Below the pieces are notes generated by a model. That model did no database searches, was not told the DNA's origin, and was given only the letters and a program-made list of their open reading frames with translations. The position numbers and the translations under genes were made by a program. A stretch of 64,000 nt of DNA from Stenocarpella maydis (Eukaryota; Ascomycota; Sordariomycetes; Diaporthales; Diaporthaceae): positions 66,482 to 130,481 of the forward strand of contig NQMI01000132.1 of the NCBI GenBank assembly GCA_002270565.1, read 5' to 3'. Below are positions 2,161 to 11,843 of the stretch, one piece after another (position 1 is the first letter of the stretch; each line of letters opens with the position of its first letter).

Positions 2161-4216
2161 TCACTTCCCAGCTTTCTTGCCCTCTGCTCCGCTCGCGCCT
2201 GGCCTCCCCAGCACGGCAATAGCACCGACAAGCCAGGCGGGCCACCAGACGCCCCAGGCGACGACGCTTGTATACATGCTCCAGACATGCCACCCGAAGG
2301 CCGCCTCGCGCAGCACCTCGCCCAGGCCGGACCACGCCGACCAGTACGCGCTCCACAGGGCCAGCACCGCGGTCGGCGCCAGCAGGTGGAGGAGCAGCGC
2401 CGAGGCCCACCGCGCCGCGGGCAGGGAGGGCCATGGCCGCACGAACGAGAGCGGCGTCGAGAGCAGCCCCACCATGAGCGAGAGGGAGAAGTTGAGCGTC
2501 GCCAGCGTGGAGAGGAACATTCCCAGCAGGAGGAGGGAGAAGGACTGCATCAGGGCGTACTGCTGCGCAGTCGGGCGGAACCTGGTTGTCAGCAGGTGGG
2601 AGGCGACGTGTGGGAGGGCGGCGTTGAGGGCCGTGAAGATGATGAAGACTGGGGTGTGCATCTGCGGGCTGTTAGTTTTTTTTTTTTATTTTTTTTTTTA
2701 AATTTTTTTTTATTTTTTATTTTTTTTTAAAAAAATTTTAAAAAAATTTTTTTTTTTTTTTTACGTCCGGATGTGTCCAGGATGGGGCGAAACTTACGCC
2801 CTCGGGCAGGTTATTGAAAATGTAGAACGGGACGACACCCAGGAACTGACAGCCGGCGACAAGCACCAGAGGGAGCAAGAAGTCCCTCTCGGAGGCCGGT
2901 GTCAGAATGGCGTCGGCCGGGCCCTTGTCGCCCGTCGCCGCCTTCTCCTTGCCGGTGGTCTCTGCCGGCTTTTCGACCTCCCCAGCCTGGCCGCTCCTCA
3001 CCCACAGCGCGATCGATATGATGGTAAAGTTTGCCGCGACCAACATGGCGCTCGGCAGGTAGGTGCCGATGCTGACGAAGCGGTCCTTGTGCATGAGCAG
3101 GTAGAAGAAGAAGCTCTGGTGCAGGTGCTCGAGCAGGTTGTTGAGGGAGCGGAATGTGCCCTCGACGACACGGCCCATGGCCATCTCGTCCTGCCAGCCC
3201 TCGCCGTAGGGGCGGAGGGTGACGGCGTCGACGTGGTAGGGGATGAAGCAGCTGTGCGGGCCGGACGCCATGCCCAGCCCCTGCTTCATCATGCCGCGCA
3301 GCATGGTGCGCAGCCTGTCGTCGTACGAGTCGCCGTGGGACCACATCTCCTGGATGGACACGCCGATGCCCATCTGGCCGCCGGCGATGTTGACGACGCT
3401 GTTGATGAGGTCCAGGTTGGGCAGCTGCCCGTTGATGCCGTCGTACACGACGTGCAGCGAGTGGAAGCGGTGCTCCTGCGCGTAGTCGAGCGCGATGGCG
3501 CCCTGCAGCGCCCCGGACTTCATGGGCAGCGGGTCGATGCGCCGCGTGTCGTGGGCGTCGTGGTACGCGTCCACCCACGCCTGCGGGCCCGCGAGGCTGT
3601 CGGGCGGCACCACGAGGATGATGTCCTTGGACCACAGGGACCACCGCCGGAAGTAGCGCGCCAGCGTCAGCAGCAGCGCCACCCCGCGCCGGTTGAGCTC
3701 GCCGCGGACGTTCTGCCAGGCGGCGACCAGCACGATGGCCTCGGTCGCGTCGCCTCGCGGGGCCTGCAGGATGGCATAGACGTTCTCGCCGGCGTACGTG
3801 TTGCCCGAGCTAGAGTAGGTGAAGTTCTGCCGGCCGGCCTTGAGCCCAACAGCCTTGAAGATGCCCTCGAGCCCGTCGTTGACCTCGGTGTTGGTCCGCC
3901 CAACAAGCGCGTCGACCTCGTGCTTGTACGCCCGGAAGACGTTCTGGTCGCTGCCGCCGAAATACGTGTGCACCTGGCCCGGCAGGAGCGCGTTCTCGGA
4001 AATGTAGGTCCGCCGGGAGTAGTCGTTCTGCGGTAGCATGAGCAGCCACACGACGCCGACGACGATGCACAGCAGGGAGATGTAGGGCGGCAGCTTCAGG
4101 AGGCGGGGGTCGCGGCGGAGGCGCAGGGCGCCGGCTTGAGCAGGGGGTCAGCCATGGGGGATGGAATGGGACCCGGTGGGCGGGACGGTTTGCAACTCAC
4201 ATAGGAGCTGCGACAT
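2161..4216 (-). CDS. GAA1: GPI transamidase subunit Gaa1
   Basis: Three exons fit exactly: 4216-4201 (16 nt), 4134-2798 and 2661-2161, with donors gtgagt and gtaagt and phases 1 and 0, giving 617 residues against 614 in yeast Gaa1. The N-terminus reads MSQLLSGALRLRRDPRLLK, then a transmembrane helix (about residues 23-37). A large ER-lumenal domain follows, with the peptidase-M28-like Gaa1 fold (VLVAAWQNVRGELNRRGVAL, DIILVVPPDSLAGPQAWVDAYH, and LPNLDLINSV). Several C-terminal membrane spans follow. Gaa1 is part of the ER complex that cleaves the C-terminal signal of precursors and transfers preformed GPI. The start was chosen because only this ATG, 16 nt before a consensus donor, joins in frame to the conserved LRLRRDPR block. 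The second intron (2797-2662) contains a long A/T homopolymer tract. Confidence 0.9.
2671..2761. repeat. Long A/T homopolymer tract inside GAA1 intron 2
   Basis: About 90 bases made only of A and T, mostly runs of 7-16 identical bases, lie between the donor (2797) and the branch point/acceptor (CTAAC at about 2670, AG at 2662-2663) of GAA1 intron 2. Length is likely unstable in vivo and in sequencing. Confidence 0.9.
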
Positions 4217-4857
4217 CGTGTTGCTCTCGTGGGCGTGGGCGCTCAGGGGAGCTTGGGGTTCGAGGAAAGGAGAGAGGTGCCGGCAGCACGTGTCCCTTCA
4301 GGCGCCTGCAGGCCAATGAGTTACCCGGCGGAGCACACTTGCAGGCTCAAGGACCCATGGAGTCGAAGCACACACAGCCGTATTCCCCACAACCAGCCTT
4401 GCGACGTGACAGGTTGTTGTCGTATCCTGCTGTTGATGTCCATGACGGAGCCTCCGAGAAGCTTAGCTGGCTTGTAGCCTTCAATTGCATAATAGTCCCC
4501 GCTATTTGAATACTGTGTGGCACACGCTTTGGGCCTCGCCCAAGAGACCCATGTCAAAGTGTCAAAGTGTCTGGTCTTGATCTACTTGATGCTCTTAGAA
4601 TTTGTTGAAAGCCATGCTTGCTGGCCGACTGCAAAGCCCAGTCCTGATTCTAGCCTGCGAGGTGATTAAATGGCTCTGAGAGCGACCGAGTTAAAAGACC
4701 CTGACCAGATCGCAACACCTTCCCGACCAGCAACGCCAGCAAGCGCCCCCCCCCTCCCCCGCTATCCAGATTACCATGTAACAACCGCATATCGTGCATG
4801 ATGAGAACAAGTCTTTTGGTAAACAGAAGAAATCCAAGCGAGTCCACGTTGTGTCGC
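4217..4857. other. Intergenic between GAA1 start and RBD2 end
   Basis: Holds the GAA1 promoter/5' UTR (right after 4216 on the minus strand) and the RBD2 3' end. No gene seen. Confidence 0.6.
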
Positions 4858-5865
4858 CTAAGGGCCCAGCCTCTGTCCAGCACCACCAGTACCAACAACA
4901 CCCAACGGCATACCCTGCGACGGTCCAACGCCACCGGCGGCCGAGGGGAGAACACCGAAGCGCCCGTACGTCTTCTGGTCGACGCTCACGTAGCGCGGCA
5001 GCCTCTGGAGCAGCTTGAGGCGGGCCTCGATCCAGCGCAGCGCCTTCTCGGGCGGCGACAGGAACTTGAGGTAGCCCAGGCCGCATACGTAGCCGATGGC
5101 GAGCCCGGCCGCGTGGCCCAGGAAGCTCGTGTTGGGAACCAGCGCCGCGATGATGACCATCAGTATCAGTGGCGTCGCCCACGTCGGGATGTTGTACGTC
5201 GCGATGGTGAAGTGCGGGTTCGTCCGGTACGTGCGCATCGCCTCCGCGCCCAGCAGCAGGAAGAACCACACGCTCGCGCCCATGACGCCGTTGTTGGAGT
5301 GAAGGATCACTTTTTCCATGAGGATGTAGAGGAACGCTGGGAAGGTCGAGAAGGCTGTGCGTTTGTGGTGTGGTGTGGTTAGCTTGCTGACGGCAAAGTC
5401 TCGGCCCGCGGGGTGGAATGCAGTCTTGCTCACGTCCAAAGAACAGCGCCAAGCTGGTCAATGTCCCGTATTCACTCTCGAATCGCTCCAGAAGAGGCGT
5501 CAAGGCCAGGACGTTCATGATCATGTGCAGGAAGTTGAGGTGTATCAGCGGGTACGTGTTCGTTCGGTACACTGGCCAAGGCTGTCAGTTATCGCGTTAC
5601 ACGCCCACCAGTCTAATCCCCTCCGTGGGTGACCTATCCGTCCATCGCAGGATCCCAGTGGAAGGCAGCACTCACGGCTCGTGATTCCGACCTCGTCCGG
5701 CACCAGCGCGCCCCACGCCTGCATGTCCCATCTCGACCCAGAAACCACGCCCGCGGCCCACGTCGCCACTATTATAGACACGACGAGCCTTGTGAAAAGC
5801 GGCAGTTTGTAGACGTATGACTTCGCGCGCCCAGCGCTGAAGGACTGGAGCGTCGGTGTCGACAT
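4858..5865 (-). CDS. RBD2: Rhomboid family serine protease Rbd2
   Basis: Three exons: 5865-5676, 5571-5434 and 5354-4858, with phases 1 and 1, give 274 residues (yeast Rbd2 has 262). It starts MSTPTLQSFSAGRAKSYVYK. The Leu codon is split at the first junction, giving ITS-L-YRTNTYPLIH. The nucleophile is Ser in the GAS motif (NNGVMGASVWFF, about residue 137) and the general base is His in GHAAG (about residue 190), so both catalytic residues are present. Six membrane spans are visible, followed by a short soluble tail after PRYVSVDQKTYGRFG. Rbd2-type rhomboids act in the Golgi; in fission yeast and Aspergillus they process the SREBP transcription factor. That role here is inferred from the family. 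Confidence 0.9.
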
Positions 5866-7321
5866 TGCAATTGCTTCGCACGGACCCGACTGGAACGATG
5901 TTGCCTGAGGGAGAAAGCAAGGTGGGCTGCGCACGTGTCATGGGTTTGCCGATGCTATACTCCAGTGGGGTCCGAGTCCTCTTTCCTTTTTGAGCTGAGA
6001 TGGCCAATCTGTGATCATCTTGCGAGCGGTGATACCGCCCGAAGTGTCGCAGTGGTGTTGCTGGCCTGTGAATATAAATGACACGACTTGAACATGGGGG
6101 GAATTGAAATCGCAGGCTGCCGGCACTACGTCGCAAATAGAAGCAGGGCTTATCTCTTATCTGGCGGCCCCGCCAAGTGTCTATCGCTATAGTCTCTGTT
6201 GACGCAACATTGCAAGTGACCTGTGCGTCTAGCCGGGAAATACCTTATATCCAGGACACTCAGATATTTGCACCCAGAAAAGCAGAGGACATGCCGACAC
6301 GCCATTCATCCCATGGCGAAACCAGAGACTATCACAAAGCCCAACGCGTACACTCTTACACCTAGGACCAATTTGCTGAGAGTGAGTCTTGGGTTTATGT
6401 GCTGTGAGAGTAAGTATTACAGGAGTAGGTGTGTTGGTAGTGGCTGGTCTGGTGTATGTGTATGTGTATGTGTTCTAGGTGTGGGTGCTCTGGGTGTCTG
6501 GTGGCAGGTGCTCTGAGCATCTGTCTGGGTGCGGGAATTCTAGGTATGGGTCTCTTATACAAAGTAGTATGGGTAGTGGGTGACATGGGTGTAACTTACT
6601 ATAGAATTTGGGGGTAGGTCTTGTCGAGTTCAGAGGTCGGTGTTGTGGGACTGGGAGTCGTGTCTTGTGAGAGTGGGAGTTGTAGGGGTAGGTGTTATAG
6701 ATATAGGTATGATAAGGATAGGGATGTATAGGTGTTATAGGTATAACTGCCACAGGTGTTGTTCAAGTGTGGGAGTAGGTGGAGCAGGTGCAGGTGTACA
6801 TACACTAGTGCAGGCGTTGAGTATTGCCACTTTAAAGGTGGTTGTTTGGGTAGTAGGTATTGAGGGTATGTATGTGTAGATGTTATGAGTGTGGCCCACA
6901 GGTATTATTGGCTTATAAGTTCGAGTGTTGAAAGTCCTGGTGTTGCGGATGTGGGTGTGGGCGATGTACCAGTGTACCCTCCTTTCTTCTGGGCGTGAAT
7001 TTCTAACTCCTCCAGTTTCCTATTCACATGTCACGGCACTCGGGCCATTTCGTAACCTTTAAAATAATTTCATTTGTACAACATCAAAAAAATGCGACGT
7101 TGCCTGTCAGGGTGATGTAAAGTTCCAAACCGATGAGCTCCATACCCGAGAACCCCTCCGCCTAAAACAAGCGAGTATGGTATTTAAAGTATCGTCTTCT
7201 TCGTCTCTGTCCTACCCACAGCCCATCTTGGTCCTGTTCTGGACCGTGGCTGATCGTACTCTTCGCCTTACATTTTGACACGGGCGCGTGTGCGCGCGAT
7301 CACCCTGTGAAGGTGATGAAT
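5866..7321. other. Intergenic, RBD2 promoter to aconitase 3' end
   Basis: Contains the RBD2 upstream region, then the G/T-rich degenerate array listed separately (6395-6965), then the 3' flank of aconitase. No protein gene is supported. Confidence 0.6.
6395..6965 (+). repeat. Degenerate G/T-rich minisatellite (TAGGTGT-like units)
   Basis: Strand-biased tract on the + strand with many variants of TAGGTGT, GTATGTGTATGTGT, GGGTGTCTGG and GGTGTTATAGGTAT. The unit is irregular, so it looks like an old or fast-changing minisatellite and not a clean microsatellite. The open frames crossing it are repeat artefacts. Confidence 0.7.
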
Positions 7322-10300
7322 TTATTTGTTGGCCTTGGCCATGGTGTTCAGAGCGCTGCCGTTCTTGAACCACTCGATCTGGCCGGCGTTGAAGGTGTGG
7401 GACAGCTTGACCTCGAATGGCTTGCCGTCCTTGGGCTTGACAACCATGGTCAGGGGCTTGCCAACTTCGAGCTCGGTGGCCTTGAGGTCAACCTGTGGAA
7501 ATCTTGATTAATATGCGATACTTAGTGTCATTTTTTGAACGTATGAACGTACCTTGGCGTCGGTGGGGATCTTGTCGTAGTCCTCGGGGTTGCTGAAGGT
7601 CAATGGCAGCATGCCTTGCTTCTTCAGGTTGGTCTCGTGGATACGAGCGAACGACCGGGTGATGATGGCAACACCACCAAGGTGACGGGGCTCCAGAGCA
7701 GCGTGCTCACGGGAAGAACCCTCACCGTAGTTCCAGTCACCAATGACGACCCACTTGATGCCCTTGGCCTTGTAGTCACGGGCAACAGCTGGCACGGCAT
7801 CCCACTGGCCGGTGGTGGCGTTCAGAACCTTGTTGGCCTCGCCATTGGCGGCGTTCATGGCACCAATCAGCATGTTGTTGGAGATGTTGTCCAAGTGGCC
7901 ACGGTACTTGAGCCAAGGACCAGCCATAGAGATGTGGTCGGTGGTGGTCTTGCCCTGGGTCTTGATCAGGATAGGGGCATCAATGTAGTCCTTGCCGTCC
8001 CACGCGTTGAAAGGCTGGAGGACCTGGAGACGGTCCGAGGAAGGAGCAACCTGAACGCTGACGGCGGATCGGTCGGCGGGAGGGGCCTGGTATGTGTCCT
8101 GGCCAGGGTCATATCCCCTCGTGGGGAGACCGTCACCAGTAGGGGCCTTCAGGGTGAACTCATTGCCATCCTTGTCCTTGAGCTTGTCGGTCAAGGGGTT
8201 GAAAGACAGGGTACCAGCAATAGTCATGGCAACGACCAGGTCGGGGGAAGTCACGAAGGAGTGAGTGGCAGGGTTGCCATCGTTTCGGCCAGTGAAGTTA
8301 CGGTTGTACGAGGAAATGATCGAGTTCGCCTCGCCCTTCTTGACGTCGCGGCGGTCCCATTGACCAATGCAGGGGCCGCAGGCGTTGGCCAGGACAACAC
8401 CACCGTACTCCTCGAAGGTCTTCAGCTGGCCGTCGCGGGCGATGGTGGCACGGATCTGCTCGGAACCAGGGGTGACGAAGAAGGCAGACTTGGCCTTCAG
8501 ACCATGGGCCATGGCATCCTGGGCGATGGAGGCGGCGCGGGACATGTCCTCGTACGAGGAGTTGGTGCAGGAGCCGATCAGGCCGGCCTTGAGCTCCTCA
8601 GGCCAGTTGTTGGCCTTGACAGCCTCGCTGAACTTGGAGATGGGGGTGGCCAGATCGGGGGTGAAGGGGCCATTGATGTGAGGCTCGAGCTCGGACAGGT
8701 TGATCTCGATCAGCTGGTCGTACTCGGCGCCCTCGTCCTCGCGCAGCTCCTTGGCGTAGACGCGCGAGAAGTCACCGATTTCCTGACGCTTGGTGGCCTT
8801 CAGGTAGTCGTACATGCGGTCGTTGAAGGGGAAAACCGAGGTCGTCGCACCAATTTCCGCACTATGGCATTCAAAATTAGTTATCCGAAAATCTAAAATG
8901 ATGAATAATTCCGGGAAGTATTCACCCCATATTGGCGATTGTGGCCATGCCAGTGGCAGAAACACTATCGAGACCGGGACCTAGATGACGAAGAAGTTGA
9001 CAGATTAGCAAAATGTTGGCGGTTTTGACGGAGAGGCTGACGAAATGCTGGCGGTGAAGGCAGAAGTTGACATAATAGCGAAATATCGGCGAAGAGAACT
9101 GGTAGATTCTCTTTGGACAGGGTCCAAGACGTCAAAAAAGCCAAAAAGATTCGACAACAGGGTGGTTAGTGCTGCTGTTTGGCGCCCGCAACTGGCAGGG
9201 CACCCTCAACAGCAGGCTTGAATGGAGTGAAGAAAGACGCCAGGTGTTGCTGCTTGGCACCGGAAACTGGCACTGGCTTGGAAGATCCAGCAGAGGCATT
9301 GCCGGAAATGGGCTGCAGTCTGGCACGGGCCTGTTGCAAACGAGCGTTGGCAGCGTGTTTAGGCCCTCGGAGATGTTTCGTCAAGGCAGGTTTCTGGCTG
9401 AAAGCGTGGTTGCAGACGTGACAGAAATGCCGTTTCTCCTCGATAGCCTTGATCTTGCACCTCTTGTCCGCAGCCTTGACAGATTCCGGGTTGTTCTGGC
9501 AGTGCTTCTGTGTCCCCTCCCTCTTCTTGGCAAGATGGGCCTCTGGATCGGCAGCTTTGATGCTCTCCCGATATTCCACCATGTAGTCAGACCGGCGATT
9601 GGCGATCTCGGTAGCCATTTCTTCCAGTTCTTGGGCAGTGAGGTTGTGGTCACCTTTGACGGATTCGATGAAGGCATTGTGAGAGCACAGATCCTCGTAC
9701 TCAAGAGACTCGACAGTCCATCGCCAGGTGTGGCCCATCCCGTGAGCATCGTCTGCCGCAGAACGGATGGCCCAGAGGACAAATGTGAACATGGCCTCCA
9801 GTGCGACAACAGAATGCGAATGCCGGGGATCAAACTGGCAGAAGGATTGGGAGTCTGGCAGAGGATTCCCCTGTGGACGAACTTGTACACGTCTTTGACA
9901 GCTTTTTCGACGTAACGTGGCAGGGCCTTGAGTCTGCGGTATTGCTCCAGACGAGCCCAGCAGCCAATCAGACTGTCAGTCCCAGAGCCGACATAGATCA
10001 GAGGCACGCAACCAGCCTTCTCCAAGACCACCAGGTACATAGCCCAGATCTCGTTGTTGCCAGTTGGGAGGCTCTTGAAGTAGTCAATGGTAGGGGGACT
10101 ATCAGATTGGAGGACGTCCAAGAGACCAGGGGCGAATGTGATGGGCACCAGACTGGCAAGTACTGTCAGGGCAGCCATATCTGGCAGGTATCTGAGGAAG
10201 AGAGGGTTGCGAAGTCGGTAGTAAGTGGCCATGAAGGTGGTCCAGGCGAGTCCCAGAACGGTCTGGAGGGCGGTGATTCCGGCACCTGAATCCAGGATTG

Positions 10301-11843
10301 ACTGTGATTCAGGCGTTTCGAGTGACAGTTTTGAGACGGTGCTGGCAGTGAGGCAGGCCAGTGAGAATTTGGCAGTTGAACAGCGTCCAAAGTGGCCAGG
10401 TGGATGATCCAGGAGAGCTGGCAGTGATGGCTGACGGTCTGGCCGAGTTGTGCAGCTGGTTGGCGTCCAATGTGGCCCGGAGGATTATCTACGAAGACAA
10501 AAGAAAAGGGTGAAGGAGATAAAGGCTGAGGGAGTGCAGCAGAAAATTCTGTTGGGGAGTAGGCCAGTCATGGGGGAAGTGTGTAGGTGTTGCTGATTGG
10601 GAATGAAGGAGCCGTCGTGGCCCAAGTAAGGAAACCGCGCCTACCACTGCAGGAGCTGTTAGCAATCTGCTGCAAAACACAGTCATGATCGTGAGAGTCA
10701 CGAAGGAAAAAAATATAAACAGGAAAAATAGGCCAAACCCACAAATACTCAATAATAGCACCCTGTGAAGCGTTAGCAATCAATTCTAGAAGAGAGGGCT
10801 AAGAAACTGGACATACAGTGCCACCCTTGACAGTGAGGATACCAGCAACCTTAAGAATGATGTCTGTAGAGACGTTAGTATGGTACACCACAGAGAGCGA
10901 TGGGGATAGCACTAACCCTTTGGCGAGGTCCAGCCGTTCAACTTGCCGGTCAGCTTGACACCGATAATCTTGGGTGCCTTGAGCTCCCAGGGCAGGTTGG
11001 CCATGACGTCGACGGCATCGGCACCACCAACACCAATAGCGCACATGCCGAGACCACCGGCGTTGGGGGTGTGGGAGTCGGTGCCGATGAGGAGACCACC
11101 GGGAAAGGCGTAGTTCTCGAGCAGGATCTGGTGGATGATACCGGAGCCGGGCTTCCAGAAACCGATGTTGTACTTTGCGCAGGCGGAGGAGAGGAAGTTG
11201 TAGACCTCCTCGTTGATGCTGATGGCGCGGTCCAGATCCTTCTCGCCACCGACCTGGGCCTCGATCAAGTGGTCGCAATGGACGGTGGTGGGGTTTGCCA
11301 CGGAGGGCATGCCGGCGGACATGAACTGGAGGATGGCCATCTGTGCGGTGGCATCCTGGCAGGCGACACGGTCTGGCCTCAGCTTGAGGTAGGAGGTGCC
11401 GCGGGTGATGTCCTGGCCTTCTGGGTCGTCCAGATGCGAGTACAGGATCTTCTCTGCGTATGTGAGGGGGCGGTTGAGCCTGCTGCGGACAATGTTGAGG
11501 TTCTCGGACATCTTCTTGTAGTTGATGAAGTTGCCCTCCTCCCAGTTGTTCTGCTTGACCTGTTCACATGCAAGATTGACGTCAGCGGCAGCTTGTAAAT
11601 AGGATGGTCACCGCGCTCCAGCACAGGCGTGCGGAAGCTCCAGCTCCAGCTCCAGCTCCAGCTCCAGCTCCAGCTCCAGCTCCAGCCCCAGCCCCCCGGG
11701 CCGGCGGGTGGGCGGAGGAGGAAACGCACCTTGCGGTCGAGAGGGGAGTCTGTGACGGTGGCCATGCATCGTCGCAGGCCCAGGGAGCCGACGGCGGCAC
11801 GGCTCCGGGCGACGTGGCCCAAAACCTGACGAGAGGCCAGCAT
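7322..11843 (-). CDS. ACO1: Aconitate hydratase, mitochondrial; interrupted by a 1.76-kb insertion
   Basis: Exons on the minus strand: 11843-11730, 11559-10917, 10863-10817, 10762-10743, [insertion 10742-8981], 8980-8926, 8861-7553 and 7492-7322. The first 38 codons ([16 protein letters not shown]...) are a typical mitochondrial presequence. The iron-sulfur ligands are present: Cys in [11 protein letters not shown] and both Cys in [13 protein letters not shown]. Substrate-binding blocks [14 protein letters not shown] and [15 protein letters not shown] are intact. It converts citrate to isocitrate in the TCA cycle. All junctions agree in phase except the one across the insertion. The exon ending GAIIEY stops in phase 2 at a gtgggt donor, whereas the next exon (GTCCCGG..., reading [14 protein letters not shown]) needs phase 1. 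The expected Phe-Gly codons are two nucleotides short. The gene may need an unannotated micro-exon, or be broken. Intron 1 holds a hexanucleotide repeat. Confidence 0.9.
8981..10742 (-). mobile_element. Insertion in aconitase between the GAIIEY and FGPG codons, carrying a GIY-YIG gene
   Basis: The aconitase coding sequence stops at 10743 and resumes at 8980; 1762 bases lie between, far longer than the other introns of the gene (53-170 nt). The left end starts gtgggt on the minus strand (donor-like). The right end has a branch-like GCTAAT and ends ctag, so the whole piece looks like one spliceosomal intron. It encodes a GIY-YIG/C2H2 protein in the same orientation as aconitase. No terminal inverted repeats or target-site duplication were recognised by eye. 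Whether this is a homing-type intron, a gene inserted in an older intron, or a recent disruption cannot be decided from sequence alone. Confidence 0.65.
9166..10484 (-). CDS. GIY-YIG nuclease-like / C2H2 zinc finger protein, with a frameshift
   Basis: The minus-strand frame is open from just after a TAA at about 10487; its first ATG is at 10232 ([17 protein letters not shown]). A GIY-YIG core follows: [13 protein letters not shown] (about 10045-10010) then LIYVGSG (about 9998) and an Arg-rich ARLEQYRR. Near 9810 the frame shifts by one base, after IRILLS, to [18 protein letters not shown], and runs on to a TAA at 9166-9168. The second part has a C2H2 finger (C-x2-C-x12-H-x5-[10 protein letters not shown]...HLRGPKH, about 9423-9355). 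Its tail holds QQHLASFF, a match to the PCNA-box pattern Q-x2-L-x2-F-F, and the tail words GAKQQH occur twice. Large families of fungal proteins with this GIY-YIG plus C2H2 layout exist, of unknown role. The true 5' end is not settled: an acceptor-like tcttcgtag lies just upstream at about 10491. The frameshift may be real decay or a base error. Confidence 0.65.
11636..11691. repeat. Hexanucleotide repeat (AGCTCC)n in aconitase intron 1
   Basis: About nine perfect to near-perfect copies of AGCTCC (GGAGCT on the coding strand) within intron 1 (11729-11560), between the presequence exon and the body of aconitase. Confidence 0.9.

Follow-up and report, generated by a model that had tools for sequence, protein, structure and literature searches.

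A stretch of 64,000 nucleotides (nt) of contig NQMI01000132.1 (the window) carries a mitochondrial-type aconitase gene on its minus strand, and this gene is interrupted by a 1762-nt insert on the same strand (10742-8981) that encodes a predicted GIY-YIG/C2H2 nuclease. The surrounding genome comprises 53.5 Mb in 312 contigs and is fungal in appearance, judging from its gene content and introns. The host gene was identified with the NCBIfam profile for mitochondrial aconitase, TIGR01340, which matches two large exons (E 8e-111 and 7.2e-235). As an earlier sequence-only reading had proposed for a 1.76-kb segment, the aconitase frame runs up to GAIIEY at 10743 and is picked up again at 8980 with GPGLDSVS. 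A paralog on contig C177, 53-62% identical to the window aconitase, reads GAGTATTTTGGACCTGGT (also given as TATTTTGGACCT) unbroken across the insert site. No second copy of the 1762-nt insert was found by DNA search of this genome. The first aconitase intron contains a GGAGCT tandem repeat (11683-11636).

A broken nuclease gene and its predicted twin introns

In BLASTP comparisons with relatives, the N-terminal part of the nuclease shows 35-49% identity (best P0106, 49% over 154 amino acids (aa)). The C-terminal part lies in another frame, and a conserved Glu (VALEAM) is found just upstream of the tabulated C-terminal part, in its frame. Since a frame change near 9805 splits the gene over two frames and no in-frame ATG occurs from the upstream stop (10487) to 10232, the window copy is broken. 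It retains the catalytic Tyr, Tyr, Gly, Arg and Glu, spread over the two frames; these residues are present in 122, 122, 121, 119 and 122 of 122 aligned relatives. The predicted fold resembles that of I-TevI, consistent with a GIY-YIG fold. No match to the curated Pfam GIY-YIG profile was obtained in the window pieces, or in the 122 relatives among the 25 of 30 families listed. The domain is a putative GIY-YIG domain, assigned from the relatives, the catalytic residues and the predicted fold, with Pfam detecting the zinc finger alone, and weakly. In ten scanned open reading frames (ORFs) of the insert no other Pfam families were seen beyond the weak zinc-finger and chance-level matches, and PADLOC, run on two proteins, gave no match. 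The GIY-YIG-type domain and C2H2 finger named in the sequence-only reading are thus encoded in the insert, in a gene now divided by a frameshift. That reading also described a PCNA-box-like tail. The motif QQHLASFF is there, but a PCNA box was rejected as a family trait: it occurs in 2 of 118 relatives' tails (0.26 expected from shuffles), and a looser motif in 3 of 118 (0.32 expected).

Donor- and acceptor-like ends had suggested a single intron at 10742-8981. This model was rejected, since joining 10743 to 8980 translates EYLSRSR followed by a stop and leaves aconitase out of frame. Fifteen single-intron choices (GT/GC donors and AG acceptors near the ends) were open, but every one of them cut conserved residues around GPGLDS, added foreign ones, or both. 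Two introns (10742-10647 and 10644-8981) around a 2-nt exon, TG, restore EYFGPG and give an open translation of 730 aa. Under criteria requiring a CTRAY branch site 8-45 nt before the AG, which were chosen after this locus and the HSP70 locus described below had both been inspected, the short intron was the only solution, and 3.2% of 4000 dinucleotide shuffles yielded one. The junction predicted under the twin-intron model, across 10762-8926, reads TATTTTGGTCCCGG. Because the C177 paralog is unbroken there, the predicted junction TATTTTGGTCCCGGT has the look of an empty site. Searches of the aconitase and HSP70 inserts against Rfam returned no match up to E 1, and a group I or group II intron was rejected for both. 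Given the GT, branch-site and AG signals and the restored frame, the insert is likely removed by the spliceosome as twin introns.

Table 1. Positions of the features at the aconitase locus (window coordinates) and the HSP70 locus (L015 coordinates).
Feature	Position	Strand	Evidence or remark
Mitochondrial-type aconitase, host gene	7553..11843	minus	730-aa open spliced translation; TIGR01340
Aconitase exons, as read	11843-11730, 11559-10917, 10863-10817, 10762-10743, micro-exon 10646-10645, 8980-8926, 8861-7553	minus	
Aconitase last exon	below 7508	minus	tail exon read in sequence
Predicted short intron (a), GTGGGT ... TTGCTAACAGCTCCTGCAG	10647..10742	minus	splice signals and branch-site match
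Predicted 2-nt micro-exon, TG	10645..10646	minus	restores EYFGPG; paralog TATTTTGGACCT unbroken
Predicted long intron (b) with nuclease gene, GTAGGC ... TTTTGCTAATC...CATCTAG	8981..10644	minus	splice signals
Nuclease N-terminal part (AMY and YVG motifs, conserved Arg)	9801..10268	minus	BLASTP to relatives
Nuclease C-terminal part, other frame	9166..9792	minus	ORF; up to 48% identity to relatives
C2H2 zinc finger, one	9355..9423	minus	Pfam zf-C2H2 E 0.0025, below curated cut-off
PCNA-box-like QQHLASFF	9229..9252 (9252-9229)	minus	rare among relatives
Palindrome TTGGACNNNGTCCAA	9113..9127	none	downstream of nuclease ORF
Imperfect TTGGACNNNGTCCAA copy, one mismatch	10376..10390	none	upstream of ORF; weak, imperfect copies elsewhere in window too
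HSP70 predicted twin introns	L015: intron 5289-5227, 1-nt exon G at 5226, intron 5225-3376		splice-model search
HSP70 locus TTGGACNNNGTCCAA palindrome sites	L015: 3464-3478, 3514-3528, 4946-4960		

Relatives in this genome and in other fungi

Protein search of this genome gave two further relatives, on contigs C241 and C24, and such counts are lower bounds. The C241 copy lies in an HSP70 gene, presumably of the narrower SSB type, on the same strand and flanked by PSLKK and RTFTTV. A single-intron model is out of frame here too, and the predicted twin introns (Table 1) give the protein KKRTFTTVVDSQ, open to its end. This solution was unique under the same post hoc CTRAY criteria, with 2.6% of shuffles yielding one (product with the aconitase locus, 8e-4). 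Both inserts close with a GCTAAY branch-site match and CATCTAG. The copy sought by the sequence-only reading in another conserved gene was thus found, with the same twin-intron build. The C241 copy has an in-frame TAG and its zinc fingers in another frame. The C24 copy (L016 ~4680-4090) is badly broken, carries a TGA and is closest to the HSP70 copy (63% identity over the matched protein stretch), so that decay is seen in 3 of the 3 copies found in this genome. Although the leaders of the aconitase and HSP70 inserts cannot otherwise be aligned, both contain the 12-nt word CTTCCCCCATGA (window 10579-10568; L015 5174-5163). It is the longest word common to the two leaders, a length reached in 1% of 500 single-base shuffles.

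A first homolog search with the C-terminal piece as query gave no match. The first successful search returned 11 matches at E up to 10, and a profile search returned 201 relatives at E up to 1e-3. The alignment (n = 122) consisted of the best 120 of these 201 together with P0003 and P0004 from the 11-match search, fragments P0009 and P0010 being excluded. No relatives were confirmed in viral contigs or prokaryote genomes. Among the 25 of 30 Pfam families listed for the 122 relatives, C2H2 fingers were represented, with zf-C2H2_jaz present in 71, and pieces of host genes were recognized as aconitase in three and clathrin in two.

Host fusions in these other fungi are database gene models read at the protein level. 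In P0110 (Zymoseptoria tritici) aconitase runs to GGTGSIIEYH and is followed by the nuclease, which places this copy at the window site to within about one codon; the P0110 cluster holds this one sequence only, which hints at polymorphism. In P0082 (Vermiconidia calcicola) and P0086 (Meristemomyces frigidus) the nuclease comes first and aconitase follows, at a second aconitase site. The nuclease precedes clathrin heavy chain at YDEFDNAAL or FDEWDNAAL in P0025 (M. frigidus) and P0089 (Aureobasidium pullulans, an intact copy). Three relatives (Elasticomyces, Neophaeococcomyces and Recurvomyces) are named carbamoyl-phosphate synthase cpa2 and consist of the nuclease alone; their names suggest CPA2 as host gene. 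Host evidence, these names included, covers 8 of the 122 relatives, the other 114 having none. The second aconitase site is unbroken in the window, and this genome's clathrin gene has LVFCYYHYDEYDNAALAVMERP inside a single long frame; therefore, sites occupied in some fungi are empty here. Residence at conserved sites is accordingly matched by three uninterrupted counterparts, the paralog, clathrin and the second aconitase site, all of them non-allelic.

In a quick tree (125 rows), in which support was below 80 on 50 of 122 inner branches, the copies were not clustered by host gene. The window copy fell in a set of 11 (Shimodaira-Hasegawa-like approximate likelihood ratio test, 94) that also includes the two aconitase copies of the second site and one copy named cpa2. 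This tree hinted that the two same-site aconitase copies, those of the window and Z. tritici, were independent arrivals. The approximately unbiased (AU) test was not in line with this, as a constraint joining the two gave p-AU = 0.66 and a better score. We claim neither independent arrival nor one origin for them.

Palindromes, inteins and a shared motif

The palindrome TTGGACNNNGTCCAA lies on both sides of the nuclease ORF at the aconitase and HSP70 loci, some copies being imperfect. It has 12 exact sites in 53.5 Mb, and a reversed control had 0. According to labels assigned by reading, nuclease inserts account for two of these sites, the PRP8 intein locus for two more and a GLT1 intein for one, and two lie between H2A and H2B genes. 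A coronin-like gene with a degenerate insert has an exact site next to that insert, and single sites occur in L024-L031. The form TTGGACGNCGTCCAA has 7 exact places; with one mismatch allowed there were 28 against 16 in the control, so imperfect copies mean little. One-mismatch copies at C111:579556-589062 are spaced mostly at 1189 bases, which suggests that they form a tandem array.

The HSP70 element shares a 48-nt motif (L015 4933-4886), at 92% identity, with the intron preceding the PRP8 intein, which has two copies (L024 5135-5088 and 5272-5235). The 27-nt core of this motif has three occurrences genome-wide, all at the HSP70 and PRP8 loci (control 0). By sequence, the motif would link two unrelated kinds of homing element.

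The PRP8 intein itself lies at L024 1946-5164 (Hom_end_hint and Hom_end). Glutamate synthase (GLT1) has one or two inteins, at L029 619-2661 (Pfam Hom_end) and 4115-6180 (by reading only). The PRP8 intein and the first GLT1 intein each seem to begin directly next to a short intron. In L028 (~3910-6019) the coronin-like gene is split NLLK / VNPEYLSVNW by about 2 kb that by eye look like a decayed intein or LAGLIDADG gene. Pfam gave no match in two pieces of this insert, and visual inspection of the junction showed no canonical GT donor; the insert may be a dead intein that became an intron. The labels PRP8, coronin and LAGLIDADG are in part provisional.

A probable selfish element, its predicted removal by the spliceosome and its counterparts

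Homing endonuclease genes are familiar from self-splicing introns, from inteins and from positions beside genes. We consider it probable that the aconitase insert is a decayed copy from a family of predicted fungal nucleases of the GIY-YIG/C2H2 type, which spread by homing. Its relatives interrupt further housekeeping genes, both in this genome and in several other fungi, and it is therefore likely a selfish homing element; residence in the spliceosomal introns of conserved genes would likely let such copies escape selection. Residence of relatives in several conserved genes, frame-restoring splice signals, a nuclease core conserved in relatives, occupancy differing between species and decay of all three local copies were observed. 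For the steps that would connect them, we infer the following. The zinc fingers and nuclease would recognize and cut an uninterrupted allele, and repair of the break from an occupied allele would copy the insert in. The host would tolerate it, as GT, branch-site and AG signals are predicted to let the spliceosome excise the insert in vivo, with frame and protein restored on paper. Conserved aconitase, HSP70 and clathrin codons would be preferred, since all possible recipients share them. Once the insert is fixed, the nuclease gene would degenerate and the intron would persist, as suggested by the lesions in all three copies found in this genome.

The sequence-only reading had described a homing-type element hiding in a spliceosomal intron. 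The HSP70 relative of the same build, the aconitase and clathrin fusions elsewhere and the uninterrupted counterparts speak for this picture; the window copy is broken, however, the one-intron version fails and mobility is inferred. No published description of such elements appeared among the titles and abstract starts listed from a PMC collection with no bioRxiv preprints and few subscription papers.

Spliceosomal intron gain is a long-standing open question, and it is unusual that both loci have twin introns. By analogy with the FBA1 introns of WHO-bearing yeasts described below, the short intron that lies 1-2 nt from the insert at either locus may have been born by intron gain at DNA breaks. 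More tentatively, these elements could form a distinct selfish class of fungal nuclear genomes, "spliceosomal homing introns", in which a GIY-YIG/zinc-finger nuclease gene invades invariant housekeeping codons, the spliceosome removes it and the breaks give rise to further introns 1-2 nt away from where the DNA is cut, so that homing nucleases would be a source of new spliceosomal introns. For a family of this kind, borrowing the host splicing machinery would be a further way to hide, natural nuclear homing in filamentous fungi would become directly testable, and nuclease-made breaks would be linked to the gain of spliceosomal introns.

An ordinary nested gene, that is, a nuclease with a host function inherited vertically in long introns, appears unlikely to us. 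Nuclease and host share a strand at both loci, and the aconitase site is the same here and in Z. tritici, with a single origin not rejected (p-AU = 0.66). However, the family occupies different host genes and two aconitase sites among fungi, sites occupied elsewhere are empty here, and all three copies in this genome have decayed. Slightly less probable still is a conventional DNA transposon or retroelement whose chance insertion was tolerated as an intron. GIY-YIG domains are found in Penelope-like elements (PMC4522978), and imperfect palindromes lie on both sides of the ORF. Against this, the ten scanned ORFs held no Pfam families beyond weak zinc-finger and chance-level matches, DNA search gave no second copy, and the insert is bounded by splice-type ends in conserved codons at both loci; a Penelope-like element was rejected, as no reverse transcriptase family was found in these ORFs. 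An assembly error or an aconitase pseudogene copy, which the broken nuclease and the paralog on C177 might suggest, is very improbable, as that paralog is just 53-62% identical, the spliced aconitase is open for 730 aa, the HSP70 locus is built alike and the Z. tritici gene model is occupied at the same site.

A homing element removed by the spliceosome, which we prefer, has partial counterparts among known systems. In fungal stwintrons, adjacent spliceosomal introns behave as a single interruption; the introns here differ in being separated by an exon of 1-2 nt and in that one carries a gene. Homing endonucleases of the I-TevI type, from self-splicing introns of mitochondria and phages, share the catalytic residues, the predicted fold and residence in an intron of a conserved gene, whereas the present insert has no ribozyme match, lies in a nuclear gene and encodes C2H2 fingers in its tail. 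Nuclear inteins such as those of PRP8 and GLT1 likewise place homing nuclease genes at invariant positions in genes of the nucleus. They are translated in one frame with their host and excised at the protein level, whereas this insert breaks the frame and no Hint match was found in its ten scanned ORFs; an intein was rejected. Nuclear group I introns can also hold homing endonuclease genes, but these introns are self-splicing and located in ribosomal DNA (PMC3679873).

The WHO elements, grouped here with the HO endonuclease of yeasts, join a nuclease to a zinc-finger domain at the nuclear gene FBA1 and occur as mixed intact and broken copies (PMC7282813). The family described here resembles them in the joined nuclease and zinc finger, the nuclear housekeeping host and the presence of intact and broken copies. 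WHO elements are intein-derived, lie downstream of FBA1 and replace its 3' end at each integration, whereas the present insert places a GIY-YIG core inside its host, in an intron predicted to be spliceosomal. Given this core inside aconitase and no match to Hint or LAGLIDADG families, a WHO element was rejected. Some WHO-bearing yeasts carry an FBA1 intron precisely where WHO is inferred to cut, and intron gain at DNA breaks is raised by the authors of that study (PMC7282813).

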